Assembly: GCF_024198255.1 (NCBI RefSeq) | Contig: NZ_JAJVKW010000006.1 | Coordinates: 124,001 to 188,000, forward strand | Length of the DNA stretch: 64,000 bases | Origin: Myxococcus guangdongensis | GTDB lineage: Bacteria > Myxococcota > Myxococcia > Myxococcales > Myxococcaceae | Direction: 5' to 3' | Part shown: one piece after another, positions 36,058 to 57,797 of the stretch | How the letters are laid out: every line of letters starts with the position of its first letter | Numbering within the stretch: the first letter of the stretch is position 1 | The notes under the pieces: generated by a model | The model's input: only the letters and a program-made list of their open reading frames with translations | Database searches by the model: none | What the model was told of the DNA's origin: nothing | Position numbers and translations under genes: made by a program

Positions 36058-36222
36058 GGGTGCTCCTTGTCATCAGGACTCATGACGACCCCGTGTCGTC
36101 ATGTGACGCTGATACCAGAGCAACCCGTCTGTCGATGAAACCCGACTCCAGGATGGAACGACCCTGTCCAGGTCGGATTTGACGTCTGGACAAACAGGGT
36201 GAATTCGAATTGGCTGCAGGTG

Positions 36223-38691
36223 TCAGTCGTACTTGAGCGCGATGATGGGGTCCACCCGCGAGGCCCGCAGCGCCGGGAGCCACGTCGCCACCAGTCCCAC
36301 CGTCAGCAGCACCAGCGGCGCGGCGATGAACGACAGCGGGTCCAGGGCGCTGACGCCGTGGACGAAGCCAGACACCAGCCGCGTCAGCGCCAGCGCGCCC
36401 GCGCACCCCAGCACCACGCCGCCGGCCACCGAACCCATGCCCTGCCGGAGCACCAGTCGCACCACCTCGCCCCGCGTGGCGCCCAGCGCCAGGCGCACCC
36501 CCATCTCCCGCGTGCGCTGACTCACCAGATAGGACAACACCCCGTAGATGCCCACCGCGGCGAGCAGGAGCGCCAGCGCCGCCATCATCGCCAGCAGCAC
36601 CATGTTGAAGCGCTCGGAGCCGAGGGAGCGCGCGACGTGGTCCGCAAGCTTCAGCGTCTCCATCACCGGCTGCTGCGGGTCCACCGCCCACACCTCGCGC
36701 TGGACGGCCGCGATGATCTCCGCGTGGCCTCCCGGGGCGCGCACCAGCAGGTTGCGCGGAATCATCCGCACGAGCAGGGCGGCGATGCCCTGCGACATCT
36801 GTCCCGGCGCCAGGTACATCACGGGCGGGGGCTCGTCGTTCAGGCCATCCTCGCGCACGTCTCGCACCACGCCCACCACGACGCGAGGGACCTCGTCCCG
36901 GAGGCCCGGCACCGAATGCGCCACCCGGATGCGCTGGCCCATGGGGTCCTCGCCCTGCCAGAACCGGCGCGCCGCCGTCTCGTTGATGACCACCACCGGC
37001 TCCGAGCCCGCCACGTCCGACGCCGTCAGGAGCCGTCCTCGCACCAGGCCGATGCGCAGCGCCTCGAAGTAGCCCGGGTTCACCGGACGGTACTGCCCCC
37101 AGCCCGCGCCCGGGCCGTTGTCATCGCCCGTGTACTTGCCCTCGATGGAGAACGACATGCTGGGGCCCGCGCCCATGGGCAGCGCGGCGGTGAAGCCGAC
37201 CCCCTCCACGCCGGGCAACGCCCGCACGCGCTCCTCCACCTGCGCCTCGAAGCGCTCCAGGGTCTGCGGCGTGCCGTAGCGCGCCTCGGGCAGCGACATC
37301 CGGAGCACGTGGACGCCGTGCGGGTCGAAGCCCGGCTGGACGTTCTGCAGCGCGAAGAACCCCCGGATGAGCAGCGCCGCGCCCACGAGCAACATCACCG
37401 CCAGCGCCACCTGGCCCACCACGAGGAGCGCGCGCGTGCGCCCGCCCGTGGGGCCCAGCGTCGTTCGCTGGGCGCCTTGGCGCAGCGCGGTCTCCAGGTC
37501 CGTGCGAGATGCCTGCCACGCGGGCAGCAGGCCGAACAGCAGGCCCGTGAGCAGTGACGCGGCCAGCGTGAAGCCCATCACCGCGCCGTCGATGCCCACC
37601 TGGGAGCTGTCTTGGGACAGCAGGGGCGAGGTGTCCGGTGCCAATGCGAGCAGCCCGGGCAGGGCCGCCGCGGCCAGCAGCACCCCCAGTCCTCCGCCCA
37701 ACACGGAGAGCAGCAGGCTCTCGGTGAGCATCTGTCGCGCGAGCCGCCCGGGGGCCGCGCCCAGCGCCGCGCGCACGACCCACTCGCGGTTGCGCGAGGC
37801 CGCTCGCGCGAGCTGGAGGTTGGCCAGGTTCACGCACGCGATGAGCAACACCAGCCCCACGGCGCCCAGCAACACCCAGAGCGCCAGTCGCAGGTCACCC
37901 GCGAGGTACGTCCTGAGCTCCACCGGGACGTACTCCTGGCCCTCGTCGAGCAGGCCCGGGCTCTCCGTGCGCACGCGTCCCCCCAGCGTCCGCAGCATGG
38001 CCGTCGCGCCGTCGAGGGTGATGCCCGGGCGCAGCCTTCCCGTGACGAAGAGGTAGTTGACGTCGGCCCGGTCGGTGAGGTCGAGCTGGAGCGGCGTCCA
38101 CAGGAGCGCGCCCCGGGGATGGGCGAACGTGGCGGGGGCCACGCCCACCACCGTGTAGGGTTCGTCGTTGAGGACGATGGAGCGGCCCACCACGTCCGGT
38201 GCGCCACCGAAGCGCCGCTGCCACAGTCCCTCACTGAGGATGACCACGCGGGGGCCGCCCACCACGTCCTCCTCCGGAAGGAAGTCGCGCCCCAGCGTGG
38301 GCCTCGCGCCGAAGGTCTCGAAGAAGCTCCCGGTCACCCGGGCGCCCGATAGCCGCTCCGGCAGGCCGTCACCCACGACGCTGAAGCCCGAGAGCAACTG
38401 CTCGTGGGCGGAGACACGCGAGAAGGGTGAACCCTCCGCGGTCATCCACGTGTAGGCCGGGATGGACTGTGAGGCCGAGCGCCCATGGTCCTTGTTGACG
38501 CGCACCACCTGCATCAGCCGGTCGGGCTCGGGGAACGGCAAGGGCCGCAACAGGACGCCGTTGACCACGCTGAAGAGGGCGGTGTTCGCCCCGATGGCCA
38601 GGGCCAGCGTCAGGACCGAGACGAGCGTGAATCCCCGGCTCTTGAGCAAGAGCCGGAGGGCGAAGCGGACATCTTCGAGCAGCGCGGACAC
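36223..38691 (-). CDS. ADOP/MacB-type ABC permease (orphan)
   Basis: 822 residues from GTG 38691. The N-terminal '[50 protein letters not shown]' region is the hallmark of acidobacterial duplicated orphan permeases. It is followed by a MacB-type periplasmic domain (residues about 60-250, '[21 protein letters not shown]', '[15 protein letters not shown]'), FtsX domain one (about 275-400), a linker TM near 430, a second periplasmic domain, and FtsX domain two (about 695-820). ADOP proteins carry both permease halves in one chain and usually lack an adjacent ATPase gene. None is seen here either. The likely role is extrusion of, or mechanotransmission to, an unknown outer-membrane target. Confidence 0.88.
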
Positions 38692-38836
38692 GGGGGACCT
38701 CGGGGGGCGAGTGCTGTCCTACGGTGCTTCGCGCGGGCGATTGCACGCGCGAGCCCACCCGGACCCCGGGTCTCAGCGCCGCTGGAATCCACGGTGCGTG
38801 CCCAGCTTGCCTCCGTGGCGGCGCTGGCGGACGACC

Positions 38837-39343
38837 TCAGCGCCCGCCGAACAGCCCGCCCAGACCTCCCAGACCGCCGCCAGAGGAACCACCGCCGGTG
38901 AGCAGGGGGAGCACCGAGAGGACCTTGTTGACGAGCGCTGGGTCCAATCGCGACTTGAGGAAGTCGAGCAGCAGCGGCGCCACGAGCGTGGCCTTGCTCG
39001 CGTCCAGGTTGAAGCGGCCGAGCAACGAGACGACGGCGGCCACCTCCGCGCCCTGCGTCGCCGCGCCACCCAGCGCGCCCAGCAGCCCTCCCGCGCCACC
39101 ACCCTGGCCACCCATGAGCCCGCCGAGCGCGCCCATGAGCCCGCCACCCTCCGGCTCGGCGGGAGGCGCGGCCTTCTGCCACGTGTCCATCTCCGGGATG
39201 GCCTGGCCCAGCTGGTTCGCGGTGTCCGCGCCGAGCTTCTCCTTCACCGTGCCTTGCACCAGCTTCAGCAGGCCGCCCGCGAGGCCCTGCGCCTGCGTGC
39301 CATCGACTCCGAGCTGCTGTGAGAGCTGTCCGATGAGGTCCAT
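38837..39343 (-). CDS. DUF2780-like protein
   Basis: 168 residues from ATG 39343, with AAGGGA 8 bases upstream. Sequence 'MDLIGQLSQQLGVDGTQAQGLAGGLLKLV' at the N-terminus, a Gly/Leu/Met-rich central stretch ('GGLMGALGGLMGGQGGGAGGLLGALGG'), then 'VVSLLGRFNLDASKATLVAPLLLDFLKSRLDPALVNKVLS' and a Gly-rich tail. This order matches DUF2780/VcgC-type proteins, small helical proteins of unknown function. There is no signal peptide. Its stop faces the gap after the ADOP gene start. Confidence 0.72.
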   Translation of the reverse strand: MDLIGQLSQQLGVDGTQAQGLAGGLLKLVQGTVKEKLGADTANQLGQAIPEMDTWQKAAPPAEPEGGGLMGALGGLMGGQGGGAGGLLGALGGAATQGAEVAAVVSLLGRFNLDASKATLVAPLLLDFLKSRLDPALVNKVLSVLPLLTGGGSSGGGLGGLGGLFGGR

Positions 39344-39433
39344 GTCGTGTCCCTTCGAGTCCGCGAGGAGCCCTGCTTCGTAGCCGACCTGGGGCCTCGC
39401 GTGTAGTGGACCGTGGGAGGGTCGATGGCGCAC

Positions 39434-40267: not shown

Positions 40268-40302
40268 GGAGGCGAGCATATCGTCCAGGACGGCGTGCGC
40301 CC

Positions 40303-40848
40303 TCAGTCGTCCAGCACCGGAGGTGTTGTCTGGGTGAGCACCGCCGGGGGCTCGCCGCTGGTCATGGACAACAGACCCTTGAAGCAGCGCACGGCGAGCA
40401 GCCAGTTCTTGGGCGCGCGCATGTCCAGTCCTCCCAAGAGCTGCTTGAGCATGCTGAGCGTGTCGAAATAGACGCGCTCACAGACCAGGGTCTCCGACGC
40501 GTCGAAGATGAAGAACCCCGTCATGCGCACGCGGAAGCGGCTGCCCGTGGGCGGGATGTTCCCCAGGGGGCCCAGGTGGGTCCCCATCAGCCAGAACTCG
40601 ACGATGACCGCGTCGTCGCTGTGCCGCAGCGAGATGAGCTCGTGGTGCTGGTCCGGGAACGCGACGCGGGTGTTCCGGTAGTACTCGCGCACCGCGGAGC
40701 CTCCGTCGTGCACCGTCATCGTGGACACGAGCTCGTAGTGGGGGTGAGGGAACGTCGATAGGACGTCGTCCCACTGCTGCCGCACCTCGTCGCGGAAGTG
40801 GTCCAGCACCAGCTTCTGGCGGGCCTTGCGTCGAATCTCAGTCGTCAT
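40303..40848 (-). CDS. SnoaL-like/NTF2-fold protein
   Basis: 181 residues from ATG 40848; the frame extends further upstream without coding support. 'MTTEIRRKARQKLVLDHFRDEVRQQWDDVLSTFPHPHYELV' followed by 'GGSAVREYYRNTRVAFPDQHHELISLRHSDDAVIVEFWLMGTHLG...IPPTGSRFRVRMTGFFIFD...VCERVYFDTLSMLKQLGG' follows the pattern of ester-cyclase/SnoaL-like proteins (cone-shaped alpha+beta barrel). These often catalyse aldol or hydrolysis reactions on small polyketide-like or steroid-like substrates, but many are of unknown role. No partner genes for biosynthesis are adjacent. It is divergent from the lipoprotein at 41138. Confidence 0.75.
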   Translation of the reverse strand: MTTEIRRKARQKLVLDHFRDEVRQQWDDVLSTFPHPHYELVSTMTVHDGGSAVREYYRNTRVAFPDQHHELISLRHSDDAVIVEFWLMGTHLGPLGNIPPTGSRFRVRMTGFFIFDASETLVCERVYFDTLSMLKQLLGGLDMRAPKNWLLAVRCFKGLLSMTSGEPPAVLTQTTPPVLDD

Positions 40849-41043
40849 GGGGGCTCGGGGGGAATGGCGAAGAAGGGCGATGTGGGTTCGACTCGAATCT
40901 ACACTGTAGGTCCGCGTGAGCCATTGCCGACCCTCGAATCGATGCGGCGTGGGTGCATATCCACAGCGAGTCTGCAAAGAAACTGAACCGTGACACGCGG
41001 TGGTGTCGGTGTCGGGCCGACCCGGCGAGGGTGGGGTCAATGT

Positions 41044-41086
41044 TGTCCCATTTTGTCTGTCTTTGTGTTGGGACACGCTGTGTCCC
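41044..41086 (+). promoter_or_regulatory. Overlapping inverted repeats in the leader of the 41138 lipoprotein gene
   Basis: TGTCCCA at 41044-41050 can pair with TGGGACA at 41069-41075. The latter overlaps GGGACAC at 41070-41076, which pairs perfectly with GTGTCCC at 41080-41086. The middle arm can therefore pair with either side, giving two mutually exclusive hairpins or two operator half-sites about 50-90 bp before the start codon. The remainder of the 289-bp divergent gap shows no gene. Confidence 0.4.
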
Positions 41087-41137
41087 CCCTCGTGGCATGT
41101 CCGGCGAATCTCCGCCCCGCGCGAGAAGGAACATCTC

Positions 41138-42136
41138 ATGCGTGCACTGAAGTCGCTGTCTGTCCTCGTCTCGTTGTTGGCGTGGGGCGTCGGCTGTGGT
41201 CCGGAGGCCACGTCCTTCGGGGCGGCCGAGCTGGTCATCGGGAGTCAGCAGGCGGCCGTGTCGGAGAGTGAGGTGACGCGCATCCAGGTGGTCGTCTCCG
41301 GCGCGGACTTCGCGGACATCACCCAGGCGCTGGTGAAGACCGACGGCGTCTGGGGAGGAACCCTCCAGGACATCCCCTCCGGCACCCAGCGGACCTTCAA
41401 GGTCAGCGCCTTCGGTGCTGACGACGCGCTCCTCTACGAGGGCCGGGCCCTGGGCGTCACCATCCTCGCGGGTCAGACGGTGATGATCGCCATCACCCTC
41501 CAGGACATGGTCACGCCGCAGACGCCCACCAACGAGGTGCCGGTCATCGACTCGGTGACGGTGTCGTCCACCGTGGTGGAGCCGGGCGGGGTGATTCAGT
41601 TGGGCGTGACGGCGCACGACCCCGGCGACACCCTCACGTACTACTGGACCACCATGGGGGGCGAGCTGAGCAGCACCAGCATTCCCAATCCCACGTGGAG
41701 GGCGAAATCCTCCTTGGGGACCGGGTACATCACGTTGCTCGTGAGGGACCAACGCGGCGCGGAGGTCGCCGTGCGCTTCACCATCACCATCGCGCCCCCG
41801 GGGCAAGCCCGGGGACAGGCCTCCATCCAGGTGTCCTTCAACGCGGCGCCGGTCGTCAGCGTGCAGGTCAACGAGGCCCGGGTGTTGTTGGGACAGTCCG
41901 CTTTCCTGCGCGCCAGTGTGGTCGACGCGGACGGAGGCCCGGTCACCTATCGGTGGACGGCGAGCTGCCAGGGAACCTTCTCCGCGCCCACCGCCCTGGT
42001 TTCGGATTTCAAGCCCACGGCGCTGCCCGTTGCGCCCTGCAACAACTGCCTCCTCACCCTGACGGCGAGTGATCCGTTCGGCGGCGTCCGCGCTGCCTCG
42101 GTCAACATCTGCGTGGCCGCGACCTCCATGCCTTGA
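41138..42136 (+). CDS. Lipoprotein with PKD/Ig-like domains
   Basis: 332 residues from ATG 41138, preceded by AAGGA. Lipobox 'LLAWGVGCGPE'. The mature protein is all-beta: residues about 45-130 contain 'IQVVVSGADFADITQALVKT', and two later Ig-like units begin 'NEVPVIDSVTVSSTVVEPGGVIQLGVTAHDPGDTLTYYW' (about 140) and 'APVVSVQVNEARVLLGQSAFLRASVVDADGGPVTYRW' (about 245), both PKD/Ig-type with 'Y.W' strand ends. Four late Cys ('ASCQGTF', 'APCNNCLL', 'VNICV') may pair. It is probably a surface structural lipoprotein. A hairpin follows. Confidence 0.72.
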   Translation: MRALKSLSVLVSLLAWGVGCGPEATSFGAAELVIGSQQAAVSESEVTRIQVVVSGADFADITQALVKTDGVWGGTLQDIPSGTQRTFKVSAFGADDALLYEGRALGVTILAGQTVMIAITLQDMVTPQTPTNEVPVIDSVTVSSTVVEPGGVIQLGVTAHDPGDTLTYYWTTMGGELSSTSIPNPTWRAKSSLGTGYITLLVRDQRGAEVAVRFTITIAPPGQARGQASIQVSFNAAPVVSVQVNEARVLLGQSAFLRASVVDADGGPVTYRWTASCQGTFSAPTALVSDFKPTALPVAPCNNCLLTLTASDPFGGVRAASVNICVAATSMP

Positions 42137-42158
42137 GCGGACGCAGTCCTGAGCAGGG

Positions 42159-42188
42159 GCGGGAGGCCCGGGGCAAGGGGCCTCCCGC
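42159..42188. terminator. Bidirectional hairpin terminator
   Basis: Perfect 11-bp stem, GCGGGAGGCCC at 42159-42169 and GGGCCTCCCGC at 42178-42188, 8-base loop, between convergent stops at 42136 and 42201. Confidence 0.72.
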
Positions 42189-42200
42189 GTCGAGGTGCGC

Positions 42201-43625
42201 TCAGGGTTGGCTTCGCGGGCACGCGCGAGACGGCAGGGCCTTGGATGGCGCGACGCCCATCGCGTGGCAGGCCGTGCAGGAGGGGGGGCCGCAGTTCGGA
42301 TTGGGCTTGGTGTCGTGGAAGCTCATGAGGCTGAAGAAGGGCGAAGCCGCCCGGCCCTCGAACACCGCGGAGACATCGCGCACGTTGGCGGCGTCGACGG
42401 GCGTCTGCCAGATGACCGCGTCGCCGACGCGTCCCTGCGCGGACATCAGGGCGTGGGAGTCAATCCAGGTGGGCGTCGTCGCGGCGCCCTCCCACGTGCC
42501 CGTCCGGGAGAACGAGGGACTGTATCCGTCGGCGCTCACCGTGACGTCCGAGTGGGCGACGCGGAACTGCGGGCCGCAGGACGTGAACTCCGCGGCGACG
42601 TCGACCAGGGACGCGCGGGGCAGCAGCGAGACCCATCGCCAGGTGTCCGAGGGGTTCCTTGCATTCTCGAACCCGAGCCACGTCGAGCCGACGCCATCGA
42701 CGACTTCGCTCGTGGCGAGGTAGTAGTCCCCGGTGGTCTTGTTGGCGGTGAGGGACAGGGAGACGGGCGTGGTGGTCGTGGTGCTGAGGATTTCTCCGGC
42801 GGTGGACGCGATGACGGGCCAGTAGTCGTTCTGGTCCTCCGGCTTCTGCGCCAGCTTCCAGCCGAACGAGTACCCGCTGGTGCAGCCTGTCGGGAAGTAG
42901 GGCTTGCCGTACTGATACCAGGCGATGCGGATGATGGGGTTGGGCAGGGCGCCGACGTCGTTGAGCGCGACCGCGATGGCGGGATGGGAGAGCGTGTAGC
43001 TGGAGCACATCATCGAGAGGTTGATGGTGTAGCTCGTCGCCAGGGGACTGGCCTGAGCTCCCGGGAAGCTCAGATAGTTGATGTAGTTCTTGCTGGACCA
43101 GGCCAGGTAGACGAGGTCGCCCAGGCCGTCGATGGAGGTGCTCTGCACGTATTCACTCGTGTAGTCGGACGTCACCTTGAACGGCGCGCTCCAGACGCCG
43201 GTCCGGCTCCGGGAGCGGTAGTAGACGTGGTGATTCCCGGGGCCACCGGCGCCGGCGCGGAGGTACACGATGCCCACGTTGCCATTGCCATACAGGGTGA
43301 TGGACGGCGCGAGCGCCGCGTTCGAGTCCACGGCCATCGGCGGGGTCCAGATGGCGCCATCCCGCGAGGTGGCGTAGTACACGATTCCCGCGTGCGTCCA
43401 GACGGTGTGCAGCCCGGCCGGGTCCCACACGGTCTGTCGTCCTCCCGCGGAGGAGAGCACGGGCGTCAATGACGGGTTCGTGTAGGTGCTGATGCTGTTC
43501 GTCAGCGCTTGGGTCGTCTCACCCAGTGGCGCCTCGGAGGGAGTGTCCCTTTCGGGTGAACAGCCTCCGAGGAGCAGGAGACACGAGCAGAGCAGGGCGG
43601 CGCGGGGAATCCAGGCAGTCGTCAT
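42201..43625 (-). CDS. Lipoprotein with sialidase/BNR-like propeller
   Basis: 474 residues. Signal peptide and lipobox 'CLLLLGGCSPE'. The mature protein has repeated beta motifs of the BNR/sialidase type: 'GIVYYATSRDGAIWTPPMAVD', 'VGIVYLRAG...HVYYRSRSRTGVWSAPFKV', 'LVYLAWSSKNYINYL'. These show Ser/Asp box-like 'S(R)(D/T)G..W' turns that suggest a 6-bladed propeller. Catalytic Arg triads of true sialidases cannot be confirmed by eye, so it may be only a binding propeller. The C-terminus is Cys-containing ('PNPNCGPPSCTACHAMG'), where 'CTACH' is a heme-binding CxxCH motif (see findings). Confidence 0.68.
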   Translation of the reverse strand: MTTAWIPRAALLCSCLLLLGGCSPERDTPSEAPLGETTQALTNSISTYTNPSLTPVLSSAGGRQTVWDPAGLHTVWTHAGIVYYATSRDGAIWTPPMAVDSNAALAPSITLYGNGNVGIVYLRAGAGGPGNHHVYYRSRSRTGVWSAPFKVTSDYTSEYVQSTSIDGLGDLVYLAWSSKNYINYLSFPGAQASPLATSYTINLSMMCSSYTLSHPAIAVALNDVGALPNPIIRIAWYQYGKPYFPTGCTSGYSFGWKLAQKPEDQNDYWPVIASTAGEILSTTTTTPVSLSLTANKTTGDYYLATSEVVDGVGSTWLGFENARNPSDTWRWVSLLPRASLVDVAAEFTSCGPQFRVAHSDVTVSADGYSPSFSRTGTWEGAATTPTWIDSHALMSAQGRVGDAVIWQTPVDAANVRDVSAVFEGRAASPFFSLMSFHDTKPNPNCGPPSCTACHAMGVAPSKALPSRACPRSQP

Positions 43626-43771
43626 GATGGCACCATGGGAAATGTCTTGATGTGGCGGTGCAATCCTAGTGAATGCCTGTGTTCACATTGTGTGAAATCT
43701 GGGTGGGTGCGCGGATACCTGGGGATGTCTCGGACGTGGGCGGGTTGGGCCGGGTGACGCGTCGGCGCGGT

Positions 43772-44854
43772 TCAGTGCGCGGGGAGCAGGATGGGGACAT
43801 AGCGCGCGTTGTCATGGGTCCCATCGCCCAACTGCCCCCAGTCATTGCAGCCCCAGGCCCAATGCCGTCCATCCGCGGCCCGGGCGAGGGTGTGGCGCCA
43901 GCCCGCCGCGACGGAGACGATGAAGCTGGGGCCCACGGCCTGGACGGGGGTGATGCGGTTGAGGGTGGAGCCATCGCCGAGCTGGCCGCAGTCATTACCA
44001 CCCCAACCCCAGACAGAGCCGTCGGCGAGGACAGCGATGACATGGCCACTCTCGCCCACCGCGATGGACGTCGCTTGAGTCACGCCAGGAACCTGGGTGA
44101 GGGGGCTGGTGGGATGGTCTCCCTGCCATTTCCAGACGGTTCCGTCGGCGCGCAGGGCCGCTGACAGCCAGCGCCCGGAGGCGATGGCGGACACCTGGGT
44201 GAGCCCGGGGCGCTGGGTCGCCACCGTGGGAGCGCTGGTGGAGATGTGCCAGACGGTTCCGTCGGCGCGCAGGGCATGCGTGAAGCCCTCTCCCGCCGTC
44301 ACGTTCACGACCTGGGTGAGCCCGCCCACCTGGGTCACGGGGCGAGTGTCGCCCCACGTCCAGACGGTGCCGTCGGTGCGCACGGCCGCGGAATGGAGGG
44401 CACCCCCGGCGATGTCCTTCGCCGGGGCGAAGACGGCGACGGGCGCGGTGTGGATGTCGCTGCCATCGTCGCGAACCTGCCGGTGGATGTTCATGCCCCA
44501 CGCCAGGACCACGCTGTCGGAGCGCAACGCGAGGGAGTGGTACGAGCCCGCGGAGATGCTCGTGATGTTGGAGAGTCCGGAGACGGCGACGGGCGTGTGG
44601 CGATCGAGCTGGGTGCCGTCCCCGAGCTGTCCGGCCCCATTGTGGCCCGAGCCCCAGACGGTGCCGGAAATCCCCAGGCGAAGTGAGTGCCGCTCTCCCG
44701 CCGCCACCTGTTTGGGGCCAGCGAGGGCCTGGACGCTCGTTCCCAGCGTCTCGGGGGCGGAGGAGATGTCACTGGCGCCACAACCCGTCCCGCAGAACGT
44801 CACCACCGCGCTGGACAAGACGACTCGCTGCAACCGCGTGAGAGCGTTTCGCAT
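43772..44854 (-). CDS. RCC1-repeat lipoprotein (single propeller)
   Basis: 360 residues from ATG 44854. Signal with lipobox 'TFCGTGCGA'. From residue about 45 there are seven RCC1-type units: well formed at the start ('VWGSGHNGAGQLGDG') and the end ('VWGWGGNDCGQLGDG', 'HWAWGCNDWGQLGDG'), but the three central ones lack the 'G.LGDG' segment ('VWTWGDTRP', 'VWHISTSAP', 'VWKWQGDHP'), so four blades have decayed or are shortened. It is half the size of the 14-repeat RCC1 protein at 28557-31178. It is probably a surface binding protein. Confidence 0.8.
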   Translation of the reverse strand: MRNALTRLQRVVLSSAVVTFCGTGCGASDISSAPETLGTSVQALAGPKQVAAGERHSLRLGISGTVWGSGHNGAGQLGDGTQLDRHTPVAVSGLSNITSISAGSYHSLALRSDSVVLAWGMNIHRQVRDDGSDIHTAPVAVFAPAKDIAGGALHSAAVRTDGTVWTWGDTRPVTQVGGLTQVVNVTAGEGFTHALRADGTVWHISTSAPTVATQRPGLTQVSAIASGRWLSAALRADGTVWKWQGDHPTSPLTQVPGVTQATSIAVGESGHVIAVLADGSVWGWGGNDCGQLGDGSTLNRITPVQAVGPSFIVSVAAGWRHTLARAADGRHWAWGCNDWGQLGDGTHDNARYVPILLPAH

Positions 44855-45026
44855 CCGTGGAGGCCCTTTCCTGTCATCGGGAGCGCAAGACATTGCGCGC
44901 GACGAGTCTGGGACAGGAGCCCTTCGAAACTCAATCCCGGCACGGGTGGCGGAAACGACGAATCGCCAGCGGGAAGAACCTCCCACTGGCGACCCGAGTC
45001 CTCGCCCGAATCAGGGGCGAGTCAGG

Positions 45027-45140
45027 CTACGGCTCCAGCTCGTAGGGATTGTTGGGGTTGTAGGGGCCGGGGCCGGCGATGATGATGACGCCACCACCAC
45101 AGGTACGGGGACCACCGCGAACCTTGGTCTTGATCTGCAT
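45027..45140 (-). CDS. 37-residue peptide gene divergent from the Zorya operon
   Basis: Found by reading the minus strand; it is too short for routine gene callers. ATG at 45140 is preceded by AGGAGC at the correct distance, and the frame ends with TAG at 45027. The peptide starts MQIKTKVRGG, contains a single Cys followed by Gly-Gly-Gly and Val-Ile-Ile-Ile, and ends in a Pro/Asn/Tyr-rich segment (GPGPYNPNNPYELEP). A basic leader, short Gly hinge and structured tail recall precursor peptides or small signalling peptides, but I cannot assign a family. Its leader contains a long inverted repeat (45169-45208). Confidence 0.55.
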   Translation of the reverse strand: MQIKTKVRGGPRTCGGGVIIIAGPGPYNPNNPYELEP

Positions 45141-45168
45141 GGTCTGCTCCTGATGAGTGCTGCGTGAA

Positions 45169-45208
45169 CTCCAGTCTCACGGTGACCGAGGGCCGAGCGA
45201 GACTGGAG
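45169..45208 (-). promoter_or_regulatory. Leader hairpin of the 37-residue peptide gene
   Basis: CTCCAGTCTC at 45169-45178 and GAGACTGGAG at 45199-45208 form a perfect 10-bp stem with a 20-base loop that itself contains GGTGACC. It lies about 18 bp upstream of the peptide's ribosome site, so it could be an RNA leader structure, or a protein-binding dyad. Confidence 0.5.
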
Positions 45209-45267
45209 CGCGGCATTCAATTGCACATGTAATCAGTCGTCAAGAGGCCGAGCCGATGCACTGCCTT

Positions 45268-45303
45268 GGACGACGTGTCGTCAAATATTTGATGCGACAT
45301 GTC
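45268..45303. promoter_or_regulatory. Cluster of overlapping palindromes upstream of the Zorya operon
   Basis: Within 36 bp: GACGAC-GT-GTCGTC (45269-45282), the perfect 12-bp palindrome TCAAATATTTGA (45281-45292) nested inside TGTCG (45276-45280) and CGACA (45295-45299), and GACATGTC (45296-45303). The AT-rich core is unusual for this genome. It lies in the shared region between the peptide gene and zorD and is the best operator candidate for either. Nothing else that is gene-like is seen in 45141-45536. Confidence 0.5.
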
Positions 45304-45536: not shown

Positions 45537-48443
45537 ATGTCACCTCCCGAGGCACGAACGTCCGTTCGCCACGACCTACCCGCGCGTTGGTCCATCGACA
45601 CGGGGCAGTTGTGCATCTCCCTGCTGGAGTTGGCTCCGGAACTCGCGTTCCGAGTCAGTCTGCGCAAGGCCGAGTGGCAGGCGCGCGGCTGGCTCGATGG
45701 AGACCAGCTCGTCTTCTCCCAGGGCGAATGGGCCGCCCTGGGGCGACCCGTGGAAGGGGCAGGTGACGACGAGGAGCGCGAGTCGCTGCACGAGGAATGG
45801 GCCGTGCTCCAGCACCTCCTGCTGGACCTGGTCGGGCTCGAGCAGCAGGACCTCGATTGTGAGGTGGTGGGAGTCCCGGGCGGCGCCGGAGCCCGGTATC
45901 GGGTTCGGGTTTCGGGTCTGCTCCTCCCTGACCCGCCCCAACCCATCCCCTGGTTCGTTTCGTCCGACACAGGCGAGGTCGTCCTGTTGGGCCCCTCCGC
46001 AGCGTGGGCGTGCGTGGAGGCCCGACTTGCGACCCATGCGCCCCGCAAGGAACAGCTCGCGCGGGTGATGCGCGTTCGCGGTGTCCTGGAAGAGGTGGCG
46101 CGGCGCTTGCCGGACCGGGTTCGGTACACCGCTCGGGGCTACTTGGGTCGTTTCCAACCGCAGCCCGTCGCCCGCGTTGGATTGCGCTGGGAGCAGGACC
46201 CGGAGGCGACGGAGATCGTCTCGTTGCACCCCTATGCGGTCCATCCGGATGGGACTCAATCCGCGTTGCCGCTCGCGAGCCTCCAGCCCGGAGGCATCGC
46301 GGGTGATGACGCCCGGAGGCCCCTGGTCCTTCCTGAAGGCGCTGAGCGCATCCTGGAGAACGTCCGGCCTCTCCAGCGCCGGCTCGCAGTGGATGTCCAA
46401 CGAGAGCTGGAGGACCCCACGGTCATCATCCCCGAGGGTCTGAACGCGGACGGCATCGTCGACCTCTCGAAGTACTCGGAGCGCGTGCTGGGCTTCGAGG
46501 TCCTTCGAGGTCGCGACCCCACGGTGGGCATCGAGGGATCGGGACTGGAGTGGTTCGACCCCGACGACAAGGAGGGCGACTTCTCGCTCACGCTCCAGGT
46601 CGATTCGCCGGAGGGGCGCGAGGCCGCGCCGTTGCGTTTGGATTCACGAACGCTCGCGATGGAGCTCCACGTGGCCAATGAGGCCGCGTTGGCTCGAGGC
46701 GACTCCGCGCCACTCGTGGTGGCGGGGACCCGCCTCCTCCCGAGTGAGAGTCTGCGACGTCAGTTGGTGATGGCGCTCCAACTGTCGGCACCGGAGCCCG
46801 CGACGACGCCTGATGCCAGTGATGCTCCGGCGCATGCCTCTCGGGGCAGAAAGCCTATCGAGGCCGTGAAGGTGAAGGAGCTGGGCGCCTCCGCCACGCG
46901 GGGGGCGTTGGCTGGCGACGCCGACCCCGTGCCCTGGGAGTCGCTGCGCTCCGTGATGGTGACGGGCGTCGAACTCAAGCTCCATCAGCGACAGGGCATC
47001 GAGTGGCTGTGGCGCCGCGCGCGAGAGGCGACGCCCGGTGTCTTGCTGGCGGATGACATGGGGCTGGGCAAGACGCTCCAGGTCGCCTGCTTCCTCACGC
47101 TGCGGCGCATGGCGCTCCAGGCGCAGCTCCGTCCTGGAGCATGGCTGAAGCCCCAGCTCGTCGTATGCCCGACCATCCTGCTGGAGAACTGGCGGCAGGA
47201 GCTGGCGCGCTTCTTCATCGAGTCCACGTGGGCGCCGTTCATCCTCCACGGGCCCGGGCTCGAGGCCGTCAAACGCGAGGGGGAGCTCAACGGCGCCTTC
47301 CTGGCGCGACAGGACCTGGTGCTCACCAACTACGAGACGCTGGGGGCTCATCAGCGTTCGTTGCTGAAGGTGGACTTCGACGTCGTCGTGTTCGACGAGG
47401 CGCACAATCTCAAGAATCCGGACACGCTGCGCTCGCGTGCCGCCCGGGCGTTGAAGCGCTCGTTCGCGGTCGGCCTGACGGGCACTCCGGTGGAGAACGA
47501 GTTGCTGGATGTGTGGGCCCTCTACGACGCGCTTCAGTGTCGACAACCCCGGGTCTTCGGCACGCGCGCGGCGTTCCGGGAGGCGCATCAGGGGGAGCAA
47601 GCGGTCCAGACATTGCGCCAAAGGTTGGGCTACCCCTCCGAGGGTTGCACCCTCCTGCGGAGGGAGAAGGCAGAGGCGCTGAAGGAACTCCCGCCGAAGA
47701 GCCCCCATCGCAGGTTGGTCGAGATGACGGAGGCGCAGGAGTCCCACGAGCGGCTCATCGCGAGGAAGATGGTCTCGGAAGGCTCGCTCTGGGCGCTCGC
47801 CGCGCTCCAGAAGCTCTACCAGCATCCCGCGCTGCTGACGGATGCTCGCGGACTGTCCTCCGCAACCGCGCTGCGGGAGAGCCCGAAGACGCGGCTGTGT
47901 CTGGAGTTGCTGTCGGAGATTGAAAGCCAGGGCAGCGGCGAGGGAGCGCAGAAGGCCCTGGTGTTCGTCCTCTCCCGCGCGATGCAGGACCTGTTGGCGC
48001 AGCTCATCTCGGAGCGGTTCCGTCTGGGACGTGTCGACATCCTCAACGGTGAACCGGCGAGCCGGAAGGCGGCGCTCGACAACATCGAGGTCTTCTCCCG
48101 GGCGAAGGGGTTCCAGGTCTTGATTCTGAGCCCCTTGGCGGCGGGCGCCGGGCTCAACATCACCGCGGCGAACCACGTCATCCACTACGGGCGCTGGTGG
48201 AATCCGGCGAAGGAGGACCAGGCGACGGACCGTGCCCATCGCATCGGCCAGGTGCGCCCCGTCCACGTCTACTACCCGTTGCTCCATCGACGGGGCAGAC
48301 CCGATGCGGGCTTCGATTTGCGGCTCCATGAGTTGGTTGAACGCAAGCGCGCCATCGCGCGCGATTTCCTGTCGCCCACGGACGAAGACGCCCAGCAGTA
48401 CACGGGGGTCTTCCAAGGGGCTCGCGAAGAGGGGGAGGGCTGA
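45537..48443 (+). CDS. zorD: Zorya type I SNF2-family helicase ZorD
   Basis: 968 residues from ATG 45537; the ribosome site is weak (GGGGG near -10). Residues 1 to about 480 are a large N-terminal region of unclear fold, beta-rich in part. The SNF2 motor follows: motif I 'LLADDMGLGKTLQ' (Lys512), motif II 'VVFDEAHNLKN' (Asp620-Glu621), motif III 'LTGTPVEN' (648-650), 'LSRAMQDLLAQLI', 'LSPLAAGAGLNI', and motif VI 'DQATDRAHRIGQ' (near 894-905). In Zorya type I, ZorD is the helicase/nuclease effector that acts on phage DNA near the membrane motor. Here it heads the operon, three bases before zorA, rather than following zorC. Separately, this could be an independent SNF2 helicase; co-directional packing with zorABC argues against that. 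Confidence 0.82.
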   Translation: MSPPEARTSVRHDLPARWSIDTGQLCISLLELAPELAFRVSLRKAEWQARGWLDGDQLVFSQGEWAALGRPVEGAGDDEERESLHEEWAVLQHLLLDLVGLEQQDLDCEVVGVPGGAGARYRVRVSGLLLPDPPQPIPWFVSSDTGEVVLLGPSAAWACVEARLATHAPRKEQLARVMRVRGVLEEVARRLPDRVRYTARGYLGRFQPQPVARVGLRWEQDPEATEIVSLHPYAVHPDGTQSALPLASLQPGGIAGDDARRPLVLPEGAERILENVRPLQRRLAVDVQRELEDPTVIIPEGLNADGIVDLSKYSERVLGFEVLRGRDPTVGIEGSGLEWFDPDDKEGDFSLTLQVDSPEGREAAPLRLDSRTLAMELHVANEAALARGDSAPLVVAGTRLLPSESLRRQLVMALQLSAPEPATTPDASDAPAHASRGRKPIEAVKVKELGASATRGALAGDADPVPWESLRSVMVTGVELKLHQRQGIEWLWRRAREATPGVLLADDMGLGKTLQVACFLTLRRMALQAQLRPGAWLKPQLVVCPTILLENWRQELARFFIESTWAPFILHGPGLEAVKREGELNGAFLARQDLVLTNYETLGAHQRSLLKVDFDVVVFDEAHNLKNPDTLRSRAARALKRSFAVGLTGTPVENELLDVWALYDALQCRQPRVFGTRAAFREAHQGEQAVQTLRQRLGYPSEGCTLLRREKAEALKELPPKSPHRRLVEMTEAQESHERLIARKMVSEGSLWALAALQKLYQHPALLTDARGLSSATALRESPKTRLCLELLSEIESQGSGEGAQKALVFVLSRAMQDLLAQLISERFRLGRVDILNGEPASRKAALDNIEVFSRAKGFQVLILSPLAAGAGLNITAANHVIHYGRWWNPAKEDQATDRAHRIGQVRPVHVYYPLLHRRGRPDAGFDLRLHELVERKRAIARDFLSPTDEDAQQYTGVFQGAREEGEG

Positions 48444-48446
48444 CAC

Positions 48447-50471
48447 ATGGAGACAATCACTTCGCTCTGGCGCGACGAGGCGCTGCGGTATGCCGTGGGG
48501 AGCATCACGGGGTTCGCACTGTTGGCCCTGGCCCTGGTGTTGTTCCGGAGGCACAAGCTGCGGCGCGCCATCGGGCTGTTGGATGCGCATCTGGAGGAGG
48601 TCCTCGAGGGACGGCGACCGGAGCCAGGGCCGCAAGAGGAGGCGAAAGCGCTGTGGCGAGCCATTCGTGAGCTGCTCGTCTTTCCTCCTGGGCGGCAGCC
48701 CGTTCCGCTGCCTGCCCTCATCCGGGCTGAGCCGTCCCAGGGGTTGCGTGAGACGTGTCGGGCGCTGTTCCGACACTCCTGGGGGCACGCGCTGGGAAAG
48801 AGCCTGACGGGCATCTCCCTGGTCATGACTTTCGGCCTGTTGGGAATGGTGCTGGTGGGGCCTGTCAGGGAGGCCTTGATGGGGGGCCGCGCGGCAGGGG
48901 CGTCGCAGGCGGAGCTGCTCTCTTCAGCCATCGGGCAGATGGGCGCGAAGTTTTTCGTCTCGGCGATGGGATTGCTGGGCTCGTTCTTGTTCCAATCCGT
49001 CGCGTCCGTCATCGAGAGCCGGTTGCTGGCACGGCTGGATGCCATGCGGTCCCGGTTCGAGTCCGCCACCCGGACGCTCGAGGCCCAAGACATCCTGCTC
49101 GCGACGGCGAGGGGGGATGCGCTGGGCACGTTGAAGGATGAGCTGGTCCAGACCCGCCGTGAGCTCTCCGAGCGACTCGCCCGATTGGAGAACGTCGAGG
49201 TGACGCTCCAGGACATCGGAACCCATGTGCTGTCGACCTTCGGCTCGATGATGAAGGAGCAGGTCGGCGACGTCATCACGCGGCAGCTCTCCGCGGTGGA
49301 GAAGGCCGTGCGGGAGATTGCCGCGGACCTGCAACGCTCCATCGCCTCGGGGTTCGCGCAAACGCTCCAGACCGAGCTGTCCACGGTTCGCGACAGCTTG
49401 GGGGCCATCCAGCAGTCGCTCGCCGGTCGACAGGAGCACGAGCTGGGGCGCATCCTCGAGCAACTTCGGGACTCCGTGTCGGGTGGCTTCCATTCCCAGT
49501 CGCAGGACATGGCTCGGCAGATGGAACAACTGATGGGGGTGCTGCCCCGGCTCGAGCAGCAGTTCGAGGCCATGGCCCGGGTGATGGGGACGCAGGCGGA
49601 GCAGTGGGGCGCGGAGAACCAGCGTTCCATCCAGGTCCTCAGTGAACGTGTCGCCACTGTCGTCGACAGCTTCGACCGTGTCCGGGATGGGTTGGTGAGT
49701 GCCACCGCGGGAGTCCTCGCCGCCTCCAAGGAGTCGTCGCAGCAACTGGGGGTGGAGAACCAGCAGATGCTCGGCCAACTGGAGCGCAGCGTGGAGTCCG
49801 TCGTGGAGAGGTTCGAGCAGGTGCTCAAGGGGATGGACGCGAGCACGCAGAGGCTCGTGGACTCGACCTCGCAGTCGGCTCAGCACCTCCAGCAGCAGAC
49901 CGGGGAACAGGCGGACTTCCTGGCCCGACAGGTGGAGATGCTCCGCTCGGCCGCCAACGTGGACATGAGCAACTTCCAGAGTCGCTCCGAGGCGTTCGCG
50001 AAGGTCATGGGAACCACCCAGGACGGCCTTCGCCAACTCACGGAGCAACTGCGCAACACCGCGGCTCAACTCGTCTCCGCGACTCGGGGAGCAGGGGATA
50101 CGCAAGATAAGGCGCGAGGGGCCGCGGCGCAGATGGAGCAGGTGACGCGTCAGCTCGGGGAGACCGCCAAGGAGTTCATGCAGGTCTCCCAGAGCCGCCG
50201 CGAGGTGGCCAGGGTGGAAGAGGGGCTGCTCAGCGCACAACGGCAGGCGTTCGAGCGTGTCCAGCCGGTGCTCGATGGGTTGGCGAGTCGCTACGAGGAG
50301 TCCGTCAAGGCCCAGGCGCAGACCCTGAGCGGTCAGTGGAGCAAGGTGATGCAGGACATGCAGAGCGTGGTGACGATGTCATCGGGAGAGCTTGCTCAGG
50401 GCGTCGATGCGCTCAACGAGACGGTCCAGGCGCTCAGCAAGGCGCTGACGACGCAGGTGCGGCGACCATGA
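48447..50471 (+). CDS. zorA: Zorya motor protein ZorA (MotA-like with long cytoplasmic tail)
   Basis: 674 residues from ATG 48447, with a GGGAGGG site inside the end of zorD. Three hydrophobic helices: about 15-33, 118-138 and 165-189, with a cytoplasmic linker between the first two. This is the MotA/TolQ/ExbB layout. Residues from about 200 to the end form a long Gln/Glu/Ala/Ser-rich helical tail with heptad-like repeats ('LARLDAMRSRFESATRTLEAQ', 'QLGVENQQMLGQLERSVESVVERF'). This is characteristic of ZorA, whose tail projects into the cytoplasm and is needed for defence. E. coli ZorA is about 730 residues. It forms the ion-driven motor with ZorB. The stop overlaps the zorB start (ATGA). Confidence 0.85.
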   Translation: METITSLWRDEALRYAVGSITGFALLALALVLFRRHKLRRAIGLLDAHLEEVLEGRRPEPGPQEEAKALWRAIRELLVFPPGRQPVPLPALIRAEPSQGLRETCRALFRHSWGHALGKSLTGISLVMTFGLLGMVLVGPVREALMGGRAAGASQAELLSSAIGQMGAKFFVSAMGLLGSFLFQSVASVIESRLLARLDAMRSRFESATRTLEAQDILLATARGDALGTLKDELVQTRRELSERLARLENVEVTLQDIGTHVLSTFGSMMKEQVGDVITRQLSAVEKAVREIAADLQRSIASGFAQTLQTELSTVRDSLGAIQQSLAGRQEHELGRILEQLRDSVSGGFHSQSQDMARQMEQLMGVLPRLEQQFEAMARVMGTQAEQWGAENQRSIQVLSERVATVVDSFDRVRDGLVSATAGVLAASKESSQQLGVENQQMLGQLERSVESVVERFEQVLKGMDASTQRLVDSTSQSAQHLQQQTGEQADFLARQVEMLRSAANVDMSNFQSRSEAFAKVMGTTQDGLRQLTEQLRNTAAQLVSATRGAGDTQDKARGAAAQMEQVTRQLGETAKEFMQVSQSRREVARVEEGLLSAQRQAFERVQPVLDGLASRYEESVKAQAQTLSGQWSKVMQDMQSVVTMSSGELAQGVDALNETVQALSKALTTQVRRP

Positions 50472-51202
50472 GTGCCTCGGGGGATGGGAGCGAGAAGTCA
50501 CTGGCAGACCTGATGGCGGGCGTCGCGGTGGTGTTCCTGCTGTTGGCGGTCATCTTCATCTTGGAAGCGCATCAGCAGCGCGAGGCAGCCATCCGGGACA
50601 AGGAGGCCGCCATCGAGAAGGTGGATTCGCAGAAGGAGGGCGTCGAGGAGTCGCTCTACGCGTTGCACTCGAGCTTGCAGGTGTTGGATGCCGAGCTGGG
50701 TGGGGGCTTCATCGCGCTCAGCGAACTGGATGGTGGTGTGAATGCCTTGGAGATTGAATTCAAGAACATGCAGTTCGAACTCGGTCAATGCCGGACCCCG
50801 CCCGCCTATGTCGAGCAGTTCGAGCGGGGGGCGGGCCCCCTCATCCATCGAGTCTGCGAAGCGGTGAACGCCATGCGGGACGCGGGCGCGGAGCCTTCCA
50901 TCATCCTGGAAGGACACACCGATGACCGTCCCTTCCTGGGGACGAGTTCGGAGTGCGGGGTTCGGGACGGGGTGGTCCAGCACAGCTTCGAGAACAATGT
51001 CAGGGCCAGTGCCGCGCGTGCCCAGGAGGTGTTCTTCACCGTGCGCAAGCAACTCCGCGACGCTGGCGAGGATCGGGACTGCTTCGATTCGAACTTCGTC
51101 GTCTCGGGACGAGGGCAGACGGCGCCACGTCCGGGCGCCGATGGCGGTGATGCCGAGAACCGACGTCTCGTCATTCGCGTGCGTGGCGACCTGCGCCTGT
51201 AG
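50468..51202 (+). CDS. zorB: Zorya stator-like protein ZorB (MotB/OmpA-like)
   Basis: 244 residues from ATG 50468, which overlaps the zorA stop by four bases; an upstream GTG in frame is less likely. A single TM helix spans about 15-32 with the conserved acidic residue at its start: 'LADLMAGVAVVFLLL' (Asp14), the expected proton-carrying Asp of MotB/ZorB. A helical stalk with 'KEAAIEKVDSQKEGVEESLYALHSSL' follows. The C-terminal OmpA-like peptidoglycan-binding domain has 'IILEGHTDDRPF', 'NNVRASAARAQEVFFTV', 'VSGRGQTAPR' and 'NRRLVIRVR'. The arrangement anchors the ZorAB motor to the cell wall. Confidence 0.88.
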   Translation: MSASGDGSEKSLADLMAGVAVVFLLLAVIFILEAHQQREAAIRDKEAAIEKVDSQKEGVEESLYALHSSLQVLDAELGGGFIALSELDGGVNALEIEFKNMQFELGQCRTPPAYVEQFERGAGPLIHRVCEAVNAMRDAGAEPSIILEGHTDDRPFLGTSSECGVRDGVVQHSFENNVRASAARAQEVFFTVRKQLRDAGEDRDCFDSNFVVSGRGQTAPRPGADGGDAENRRLVIRVRGDLRL

Positions 51203-51210
51203 GAGGCTCC

Positions 51211-52614
51211 ATGGACCTGGACGCATGGCTGACGAAGGTGCAGGAGCGGCAGCGCACCGCGCTCGCCGGGCTCGGCACGTTCCAGCAGCAGGTGGAGCGC
51301 GGGCTGCAACAGCTTCAGTCCAGCCTGGACGAATCGCAGCGGCGCATGGATGAAAGGGAGCCAGGACGCGTCCAGCGGATGGTCGCTTCGCTCGATGTAG
51401 ACGGGTTGCTCGAGAAGATGAATGGCAGGCGCTACTCGGAGTTGAGCCCGCGTGAACGACGCGTCGTGCCTTCGTTCTGGCGGAAGGTCCAGCCCGTGCG
51501 CATGGCGGAGTTCCTGGAGCAGTTTCCAGACGGTTGGTCTCGGCTCGTGAGGCAACGGCTTCGCGACTGGTGTCTGGCGGATGCGGATTCCATGCACCTG
51601 CGAGAATGGACGGGGTTGACCCGGCGCTGTCCGAAGGACTTGCCTTCGCTGCGGTGGCGTCTTCCGGTGCCCATTGAGCTTGCGCTCGAGCCAGAGGGGC
51701 CGAGAAGCGTCGCGGCGGGTTGGGGAGCCCATCCGCTGCGGGAGGTGGTGTCGCTGCTAGGGCAGGCGGGACTGCGCCCCTCGATTGGCTACGCGGGACA
51801 TGTCGTCGCGGAGCACCTGTTGCGACAGTGCGTCGCTCGCGAGGACGTGTCGGAGTCCCTGCTGTTCCTGGTTGATTCTCAGGAGGGGCGGGCGTGGCTG
51901 CCGGGCGTGAGTGGCGGAGGGAGTGTCCTGGGCGCTCCGGTGGAGGCGCGCGTCGCCGTCGTCGCGACACTGCTGGAGTGTCGTGCGCGAGGGCGCGTCG
52001 GCAAGGACGTGCAGGCCCGCGTCGAGGAGCGGCTCGTCGCGAGGGACAGCGTCTTCGGGGACCCGCGACTGTCCACCCTGACGGAGGCGTGGAGCGCCGT
52101 TCGCAAGTGCTCGAAGCAGGCGTTCGATGCGTTCTTGTCGGCGCTCATCCAGCAGGACCTCGAGTTCTTCTTCGAGAAAGCGATGAACGAACGGGACCGG
52201 CATGCCTTTTGGTTGCGCTACCTGGGCGTCATCCAATCGACGACCTGCTGGCTGGCGCCGGATACCTACGACGCGTTGCAGAGGAGCGTCAGAACGCTCC
52301 CCCTGGAGCAGCAAGCCGCGTTCAGGAGGGCGAGGCGCTTGGCGAAAGGTGACGTGAGCGCCTTCTGTTTGCGGTTCAGCGAGTACTCGGTGGTCGAATT
52401 CTCCGACACAGGGAATGCGACGTATGTTTATGGGCACAGTGTCTTCAGTGGCAGGGTGCTGGGAGGCGGGGTGGAGAGCGCGAATGACCTCAAGGTCCGG
52501 CGTGAGGCGAAGGACCGGTTGCATCATCATTCGAACTGGGAGCCTCGGTTCGAGCAGGCGCTTCTGGAGTTGGGCATCGAGCGCAAGCCCCCGGGGCCGA
52601 AGCGCTCGTCTTGA
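51211..52614 (+). CDS. zorC: Zorya type I protein ZorC (EH_Signature-like)
   Basis: 467 residues from ATG 51211, with a perfect AGGAGG at 51201-51206 overlapping the zorB stop. The N-terminus is a coiled-coil-like helix ('MDLDAWLTKVQERQRTALAGLGTFQQQVERGLQQLQ'), with helical repeats in the middle. The C-terminal block 'SVVEFSDTGNATYVYGHSVFSGRVLGG', then 'RLHHHSNWEPRFEQALLELGI', carries the 'H..W..RF...L...GI' pattern of the EH_Signature domain that defines ZorC. In type I Zorya, ZorC binds DNA and cooperates with ZorD. E. coli ZorC is about 560 residues, so this copy is shorter. Identification rests partly on context, since the domain is weakly conserved. Confidence 0.72.
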   Translation: MDLDAWLTKVQERQRTALAGLGTFQQQVERGLQQLQSSLDESQRRMDEREPGRVQRMVASLDVDGLLEKMNGRRYSELSPRERRVVPSFWRKVQPVRMAEFLEQFPDGWSRLVRQRLRDWCLADADSMHLREWTGLTRRCPKDLPSLRWRLPVPIELALEPEGPRSVAAGWGAHPLREVVSLLGQAGLRPSIGYAGHVVAEHLLRQCVAREDVSESLLFLVDSQEGRAWLPGVSGGGSVLGAPVEARVAVVATLLECRARGRVGKDVQARVEERLVARDSVFGDPRLSTLTEAWSAVRKCSKQAFDAFLSALIQQDLEFFFEKAMNERDRHAFWLRYLGVIQSTTCWLAPDTYDALQRSVRTLPLEQQAAFRRARRLAKGDVSAFCLRFSEYSVVEFSDTGNATYVYGHSVFSGRVLGGGVESANDLKVRREAKDRLHHHSNWEPRFEQALLELGIERKPPGPKRSS

Positions 52615-52698
52615 AACTGCGTTCGACGCCAAGTCCCAAGTGCACATGGGTTCAGCGTCATGTTCGAGCCTGATAGCGTCGTCGCCACGGGAGGGCGC

Positions 52699-54927: not shown

Positions 54928-54936
54928 CGGAGGATG
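54918..54936. terminator. Short hairpin at convergent gene ends
   Basis: CATCCTC at 54918-54924 and GAGGATG at 54930-54936 form a perfect 7-bp stem with a 5-base loop containing the TGA stop. It sits between convergent genes ending at 54927 and 54949. Confidence 0.5.
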
Positions 54937-54948
54937 CGCGACAGGACG

Positions 54949-55971: not shown

Positions 55972-55994
55972 GTTCTGCCTCCCTCCCACGTGAC

Positions 55995-57592: not shown

Positions 57593-57797
57593 GGAAGGGG
57601 CGTTTCTAACCGTCCTGACCTCGCGAGGCGAGCGTGGATCTCACCCCCAGGGACGTCGGCGCGGGGCGCGTGTGGCGGTTCCACCGGAGCATCCGGGTAC
57701 AGATGCAACAACATCACGAATCCGAGAGAATCTGAAATTCATGTAATTTGAGCTATGTCTGGATATCATGGTGGTGAACCAAGGAGGGTTCTCCATC

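Follow-up and report, generated by a model that had tools for sequence, protein, structure and literature searches.

A candidate orphan precursor gene with a ten-residue leader, divergent from a Zorya operon in Myxococcus guangdongensis

The peptide gene and its transcription unit

The window, that is, the whole 64,000-nucleotide stretch analysed, carries on its minus strand a gene for a 37-residue peptide, MQIKTKVRGGPRTCGGGVIIIAGPGPYNPNNPYELEP, which begins with ATG and contains one Cys, a Gly-rich stretch and a Pro/Asn/Tyr tail (Table 1). The first-pass annotation had described the combination of start codon, ribosome site and stop, the make-up of the product and a perfect 10-bp stem in the leader; the first two were borne out by the ORF at 45027–45140(−), its translation and the AGGAG at 45151–45147, and the stem by an inverted-repeat search. 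No match to the peptide was obtained in Pfam (E up to 0.1), PADLOC (0.01) or NCBIfam (10). Two RNA readings were rejected as well: Rfam gave no match in the window at gathering threshold, and no tRNA or tmRNA was detected in it. The gene adjoins that of an RCC1-repeat protein (minus strand, 43772 to about 44857) and is divergent from a Zorya operon (45537–52614, plus strand) with the gene order ZorD, ZorA, ZorB, ZorC, for which the best PADLOC matches were 3.4e-135, 1.8e-9, 1.4e-12 and 3.8e-24, respectively. Within this operon the model scores for ZorA and ZorB are weak, and ZorC is of the EH_Signature type.

Table 1. Features of the peptide transcription unit (positions of the window)
Feature	Position	Strand	Basis
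Precursor-like peptide gene, 37 aa	45027..45140 (stop included)	−	ORF and translation; one of 153 copies scanned
Conserved ten-residue leader MQIKTKVRGG	45111..45140	−	Residue counts in 128 distinct copies
Variable C-terminal part (putative core) PRTCGGGVIIIAGPGPYNPNNPYELEP, one Cys	45030..45110	−	Sequence and length differ among copies and orthologues
Ribosome binding site AGGAG	45147..45151	−	Sequence
5′ leader stem-loop, 10-bp perfect stem	45169..45208	−	Inverted repeat (arms 45169–45178 and 45199–45208, 20 nt between) and folding
Sigma-70-like promoter: −35 TTGACG (45243–45238), 17 nt, −10 TTGAAT (45220–45215)	45215..45243	−	TTGAC position among family units
CGCCAG...CTGGCG hairpin, terminator-like, 3′ of gene	44963..44992	−	Inverted repeat (arms 44963–44974 and 44981–44992, 12 nt, 92% complementary) and folding

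The candidate promoter was recognized from its position among related units. Of 39 Myxococcus family units, 29 have TTGAC 97–108 nt ahead of the start codon, a count that includes non-independent units of close relatives and uses a −108 to −97 interval chosen after examples had been examined; by our own arithmetic, assuming equal base use, chance would account for about 0.5 of 39. In those 29 units a T-rich, AAT-like −10 follows after 17 nt, and the TTGAC is missing in the other 10, including the six-copy block of the same genome. A general promoter scan did not flag the window promoter. Given the position of this promoter, the 10-bp stem would lie at or next to the mRNA 5′ end, which it might plausibly stabilise; no sign of a regulatory switch was found in the 5′ leader. 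The leader of the window folds at −32.4 kcal/mol (z −3.3), with none of 200 shuffles equally good, and the folds are weaker in the orthologues of two other genomes, G058 (z −1.9, 9 of 200 shuffles equally good) and G064 (z −2.3, 4 of 200). The stem itself is partly conserved, with eight basal pairs and one T-A to C-G exchange in G058 and a mismatch in G064. The 3′ hairpin folds better than the 5′ leader (−44.5 kcal/mol, z −5.0), and hairpins of its type stand behind 17 of 40 family transcription units; it has no long T run, and a terminator scan did not flag it.

The peptide family and its distribution

Reading of further stretches of the genome yielded at least 17 more copies of the peptide; 14 of these form tandem arrays on contig C6, which also carries the window gene. 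In a search of the genome the full-length peptide appeared a single time, and its N-terminal half also in two blocks, C6:506158–506801 and C6:513721–515302, for a total of 15 matches at E 0.0032 or better, counting that in the window, and three weaker ones elsewhere. The two blocks hold 6 and 8 clean ORFs of 20–33 residues. Every ORF has a ribosome site of its own, and they form head-to-tail arrays of 6, 2 and 6 copies whose starts lie 108–157 nt apart, a spacing that leaves little space for immunity genes between copies. Between the arrays, on the opposite strand, are genes for two ABC proteins, one of them bearing a C39 peptidase at its N terminus, and for an HlyD protein; ahead of the first array are genes for a MauG-like di-haem protein and for p620, a protein of 620 aa adjoining the peptide arrays. 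This cassette lies about 340 kb from the window gene, its peptides carry the same leader, and no exporter or p620 maturation machinery was found in the window. Two further p620 loci of the genome also have peptides, two on contig C10 and one of 14 residues, MKIKIHVRGGPKAR, on contig C19; the leader of the window copy is of the C6-array type, not of the C10 or C19 type.

Altogether 153 copies (128 distinct) were collected in 65 non-redundant loci, after removal of 33 copies in L077, L078, L080, L082 and L083 that duplicated anonymous loci. All start with ATG, and 152 have a purine-rich, ribosome-like site within 18 nt upstream. The leader follows the consensus M(K/Q)(I/V)(K/Q)xx(V/I/L)R(G/A)G and is followed by a variable tail, usually with one Cys. 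Among the 128 distinct copies, in residue counts that are partly shaped by the search motif, Gly is invariant at position 10, position 9 is Gly in 99 and Ala in 29, position 8 is Arg in 126 and Lys in two, position 7 is always Val, Ile or Leu, and position 3 always Ile or Val. The decamer motif, drawn up after the copies had been examined, has 67 matches in 558 kb of p620 loci and none in any of 10 shuffles. The regular expressions demand the decamer, so that diverged copies are missed, for example the RSG copy of L110. The precursors are 13–58 residues long with tails of 3–48 residues; exactly one Cys is present in 125 of the 153 copies, none in 27 and three in one. The 128 distinct copies display what is expected of precursors of ribosomally synthesized and post-translationally modified peptides (RiPPs), a conserved N-terminal leader and a variable C-terminal core.

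Two types of tail can be distinguished. Type A has a single Cys, often beside Gly (GCGG, SRCxGI, CRGP), whereas type B is very short, ends near K-x-R and accompanies p620 proteins of about 31–33% identity to those of type A; the shortest class B tails have 3–4 residues (MKIKVHVRAGKVR), e.g. KVR and PKAR. In the four class B loci compared (L069, L093, L094 and L102) p620 is paired with an APH-like phosphotransferase family (Pfam-checked in two), which hints at a kinase step. One copy, in a Roseateles MAG (L090, 11871, plus strand), has a run of 30 glycines in its tail, which may stem from repeat expansion or from misassembly.

The first-pass annotation had named random third-position substitutions between strains as a mark of a non-gene. 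In the first 12 codons of 81 Myxococcus copies, many of which are recent tandem duplicates and not independent, minority bases numbered 21, 0 and 50 at codon positions 1, 2 and 3, and all 21 at position 1 belong to a K/Q switch at codon 2. Moreover, distant copies keep the leader residues despite one to three synonymous codon changes in ten codons, and a conserved nucleotide element that is not a gene was rejected on this ground. Judged by the many homologues and these substitution patterns, and as far as sequence can tell, the 37-residue ORF of the window is a real gene.

At E 0.01 or better the window peptide has matches in nine of 96 family genomes, all of the same genus (27 genomes in the set), and exactly these nine carry the C39-ABC transporter at 80–100% identity; at that level it is absent from the remaining 87. 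Five genomes belonging to other genera have it at 70–73% identity, together with diverged peptides that adjoin p620 and have the same kind of leader, e.g. MKIKTTVRGGLLAVGPGGYGGRGCSGGGGYPIIRPPYLLA. An IUPAC pattern, too narrow for most array copies, matched 24 genomes; after removal of six in which it hit only an unrelated MKVKVPLKA gene (G055, G060, G069, G070, G071 and G072), 18 were left, all with p620.

When named genomes were scanned with a p620 alignment, using seed patterns derived from myxobacterial p620, 30 loci were obtained in Myxococcota, Burkholderiales, Methylococcales and others, including Archangium, Corallococcus, Methylomonas, Methyloglobulus, Rhodoferax, Ramlibacter and Paracraurococcus; these loci are not independent, several repeating genomes used elsewhere and many of class B being close relatives. 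A decamer peptide is present at all 30, with the strict motif in 28 and with Thr at position 6 in L080 and L083. It lies less than 500 nt from p620 in 19 loci; in the other 11 the exporter genes come between the two, at a distance of 7.6–7.8 kb. One Methylococcaceae contig encodes the peptide MKVKTKVRGGLATSLIGIRGRRGVCPVVLA 102 nt behind p620. The locus L103, recorded as Comamonas sp. KCTC 72670, is 95% identical to Myxococcus and Corallococcus loci over about 10.7–10.9 kb, and its organism label is therefore doubtful.

In the phylum of the window, 31 of 195 genomes have p620 matches, that in G042 being only partial. The matches in G042, G065 and G076 cover only residues from 163 on, and no decamer peptide was found at L114 and L115, the p620-like loci of G042 and G076, the L115 stretch ending 0.6 kb behind the gene. 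The p620-like open frames of these two loci are about 460–475 aa long, at 23–26% identity. The full-length p620 locus L110 has a peptide, MKIKTRIRSGPGTRGCGGGIILDA, with RSG in place of the usual ending. It belongs to genome G079, which has the largest spread of orphan copies found, 24 motif copies in the stretches read (L043–L053, L110 and L116), many of them single and dispersed.

The C39 exporter and p620

The C39-ABC exporter of the cassette matches PF03412 at 1.5e-21. By alignment, its catalytic residues are kept: Q14, C20 and H100 in all 12 transporters aligned, that of the cassette among them, and D116 in 11 of the 12 (Asn in L073). A C39 exporter is present in 23 of the 30 named p620 stretches, HlyD in 22 of 30, and an outer-membrane (OEP) family in six of 28 loci compared (Pfam-checked in four). 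The exporter was not seen in seven p620 stretches (L079, L081, L084, L086, L092, L096 and L106), four of which are short contigs or cut at one end. The C39 loci L062–L067, L072, L073 and L076 have neither p620 nor the decamer motif; all of these except L076 are related C39-ABC/ABC/HlyD cassettes of about 40–48% identity.

C39 exporters are described as cutting after GG, GA or GS (PMC6363468, PMC10885120). The window copy, ending in RGG, has such a pair at −2/−1, and the leaders of the family end in GG in 99 and in AG in 29 of the 128 distinct copies. For LahT150 the same two sources give a need for hydrophobic residues at −4, −7 and −12. The window copy has Val at −4 but Lys at −7, and its leader, shorter than those of the C39 substrates studied, does not reach −12. 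All copies collected have Lys or Gln at −7. Either this branch of C39 peptidases reads a shorter signal or cleavage takes place elsewhere, and here lies the main gap of the mechanism.

Sequence comparison gave no identity for p620: its matches were one PDB entry at E 0.13, a best Pfam match of 0.12 (17 members) and a best NCBIfam match of 0.016 for one of 24 members, and a profile restricted to the N-terminal part had no PDB hit up to E 10. In an AlphaFold2 model (pLDDT 85.6, pTM 0.83), residues 6–105, approximately, match winged-helix domains. A fold search with the whole model, in which the part behind residue 107 was covered, gave nothing at E 0.001 or below. Folded alone (pLDDT 86.4), the N-terminal domain is predicted to have three strands (22–28, 34–40, 43–47) and three helices (50–59, 67–72, 81–93). 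Its best structural matches are the winged helices of the ribosomal oxygenases MINA53 (Z 9.5) and NO66 (Z 7.3). Among the further matches are many RiPP proteins, for example ThcOx at Z 7.4 (3.5 Å over 100), PqqD at Z 7.0 (3.1 Å over 88) and the RiPP recognition element (RRE) of PbtF at Z 6.3 (3.1 Å over 80); values below 8, as the tool itself warns, may reflect no more than a common arrangement. By our count, 22 of the 50 VIA matches listed are RiPP proteins known to bear an RRE; Foldseek gave no match at E 0.001 or below for this domain. The strict order of an RRE, three strands followed by three helices, is given in PMC12710340, and the predicted N-terminal domain of p620, which for the window gene would act in trans, has this order. 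The fold alone would not prove an RRE, and we take the predicted domain as one because a peptide gene lies near every full-length p620 that was read.

In the rest of the protein, H162, D166, R170, E174, C193 and C333 are invariant in all 24 sequences compared, and these polar residues suggest that p620 is an enzyme. Because classes A and B have only the leader in common, it may act on something other than Cys.

Readings of the solitary gene

With the gene, its family, its promoter and hairpin and the co-location of cassette and peptides as the observed basis, we consider the window gene an orphan encoding a RiPP-like precursor whose leader is unusually short and which would be matured and exported in trans by the machinery of the arrays (probability about 0.7). 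Transcription from a promoter with the layout seen in most family units would give a short mRNA beginning in the stem-loop. MQIKTKVRGG would be the leader, bound by the RRE-like domain of p620, which would modify the rest of the peptide; at Myxococcus and Methylococcales loci a di-haem enzyme of the MauG type may share in this step. Cleavage after RGG by the exporter's C39 peptidase would follow, and the 27-residue tail would leave through the ABC/HlyD/outer-membrane channel. The distant cassette would serve the window copy in trans, as with the prochlorosins. We infer that the leader is bound, that the peptide is modified, cleaved and exported by machinery encoded elsewhere in the genome, and that it has a role outside the cell; for this role antagonism, signalling and metal binding are indistinguishable here.

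The closest way of working appears to be that of the prochlorosins and synechococsins, whose precursor genes (procA, syncA) are described in PMC10783134 as clustered or scattered singly, with one maturation enzyme; many precursors per putative enzyme, from clustered or dispersed genes, are also seen in the present family. The prochlorosins differ in having a LanM enzyme and a Nif11-type leader, of a kind described as very long, over 70 residues (PMC10885120), compared with ten residues here. No LanM-type synthetase was found by profile in p620 or in nine readings from the cassette region, two of which (L009:791–1999 and 15489–16649) are probably wrong frames, and, unlike the prochlorosin enzyme, p620 has no convincing match to a lanthipeptide or other curated family. 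The NHLP/Nif11 export systems resemble the cassette in their two ABC proteins, one with a C39 peptidase, and HlyD, whereas the cassette scores far below the NCBIfam cut-offs (TIGR03796, 175.1 of 853.3; TIGR03797, 104.6 or 158.9 of 709.4; TIGR03794, 19.9 of 156.2) and a long leader is absent. The double-glycine C39 PCAT systems have in common with it the C39-ABC with HlyD, and OEP in some loci. The leader, ending in GG with Val at −4, recalls LahA, ComC and the class II microcins, and departs from them in lacking −12, in the Lys or Gln at −7 and in the AG of 29 of the 128 copies. The predicted three-strand, three-helix winged domain, with a peptide gene nearby, is reminiscent of PqqD, ThcOx, McbB, LynD and PbtF; the rest of p620, in contrast, has no convincing fold match in whole-model searches. 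By its features the window gene is not a member of the prochlorosin, NHLP or Zorya systems.

The first rival to be weighed is that the peptide is exported unmodified, as a double-glycine peptide of the class II microcin or pheromone kind, with p620 as a chaperone or docking protein. The C39-ABC/HlyD/OEP context by itself would account for export and cleavage, and p620 has no known modifying-enzyme domain, but the RRE-like domain of p620 is followed by about 490 residues, many invariant polar ones among them, which suggests an enzyme, and a MauG-like gene is present in seven of the 30 named p620 loci. We regard this reading as unlikely.

Less probable still, the window copy could be a leftover from the arrays, silent or in decay. 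It is solitary and far from the cassette, and compared with G058 the peptide block is only 83% identical, whereas the flanks are 92–95% identical. The window aligns with G058 at 36221–39409, 40297–40849, 44948–45260, 52669–57640 and 57731–60142; that is, G058 has the peptide block between the same outer flanks and lacks the RCC1 stretch and the entire Zorya operon. The peptide block thus stands between two segments absent from G058, one of them being 40850–44947, which includes the RCC1-repeat gene and others. In G064 the match is limited to a 310-bp block at a different location; the promoter, leader, peptide and hairpin move together as a single module. Against decay, the promoter, ribosome site, start and leader are conserved in both genomes, the hairpin is kept in G058 and in G064 with one changed arm base, and the leader differs from that of each orthologue by a single synonymous codon change. 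Many such single copies are, moreover, carried by G079.

It is improbable, more so than decay, that the decamer is itself the product or an intracellular agent and the tail a follower. The decamer is indeed the conserved part, and class B tails of 3–4 residues are odd for a core; array copies (up to nine per unit) differ mainly in the tail, however, which would make little sense if the tail were waste. Some neighbouring array copies are identical throughout.

The link to Zorya implied by the first-pass annotation fared worst. The gene is adjacent to and divergent from the operon, as described there, but its conserved block ends near 45260–45267, some 270 nt short of the start of ZorD (45537). 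The proposed comparison of genomes with and without Zorya yielded many homologues, and ZorC (PF15611) is missing in seven of the eight other peptide-carrying genomes, G058 among them, and lies about 230 kb from the arrays in the eighth (G056). That the peptide is a regulator or accessory part of the adjacent system is hardly credible and, as a general link, was rejected, given the syntenic G058 copy without Zorya, the ZorC distribution and a family that accompanies p620 instead. The adjacency is incidental, and the case is a warning against inferring function from an adjoining defence operon. Of the options listed at the outset, that of a precursor peptide fits best, unrelatedness to Zorya holds as well, and that of a Zorya regulator falls.

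In literature searches we found no description of the present peptide family; section 7 of PMC12710340 counts 13 RRE recognition motifs, only some of them named in its text, and its figures might include the decamer. The family, with an exporter and an RRE-like partner of its own, is widespread and, it seems, undescribed. Chances are about even that this is a new RiPP class, in which p620, combining an RRE with a new catalytic domain, acts on precursors with a ten-residue leader. If so, the class would comprise precursors of 13–58 residues with the leader M-K/Q-I/V-K/Q-x-x-V-R-G/A-G and two core types, one with a single Cys and one a very short K-x-R, in Myxococcota and several proteobacterial groups, and some Myxococcus would have expanded arrays and dispersed orphan genes matured in trans. 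At 13–58 codons, most of the copies found are too small to be called by gene finders, and for this reason the family, which occurs in many myxobacteria and extends to methanotrophs and Burkholderiales, may have been overlooked; the decamer offers a handle for searching for it. If p620 does modify the tails, the ten-residue leader would be exceptionally short among RRE systems and handy for engineering, and the arrays would be a natural library of variants for one enzyme.
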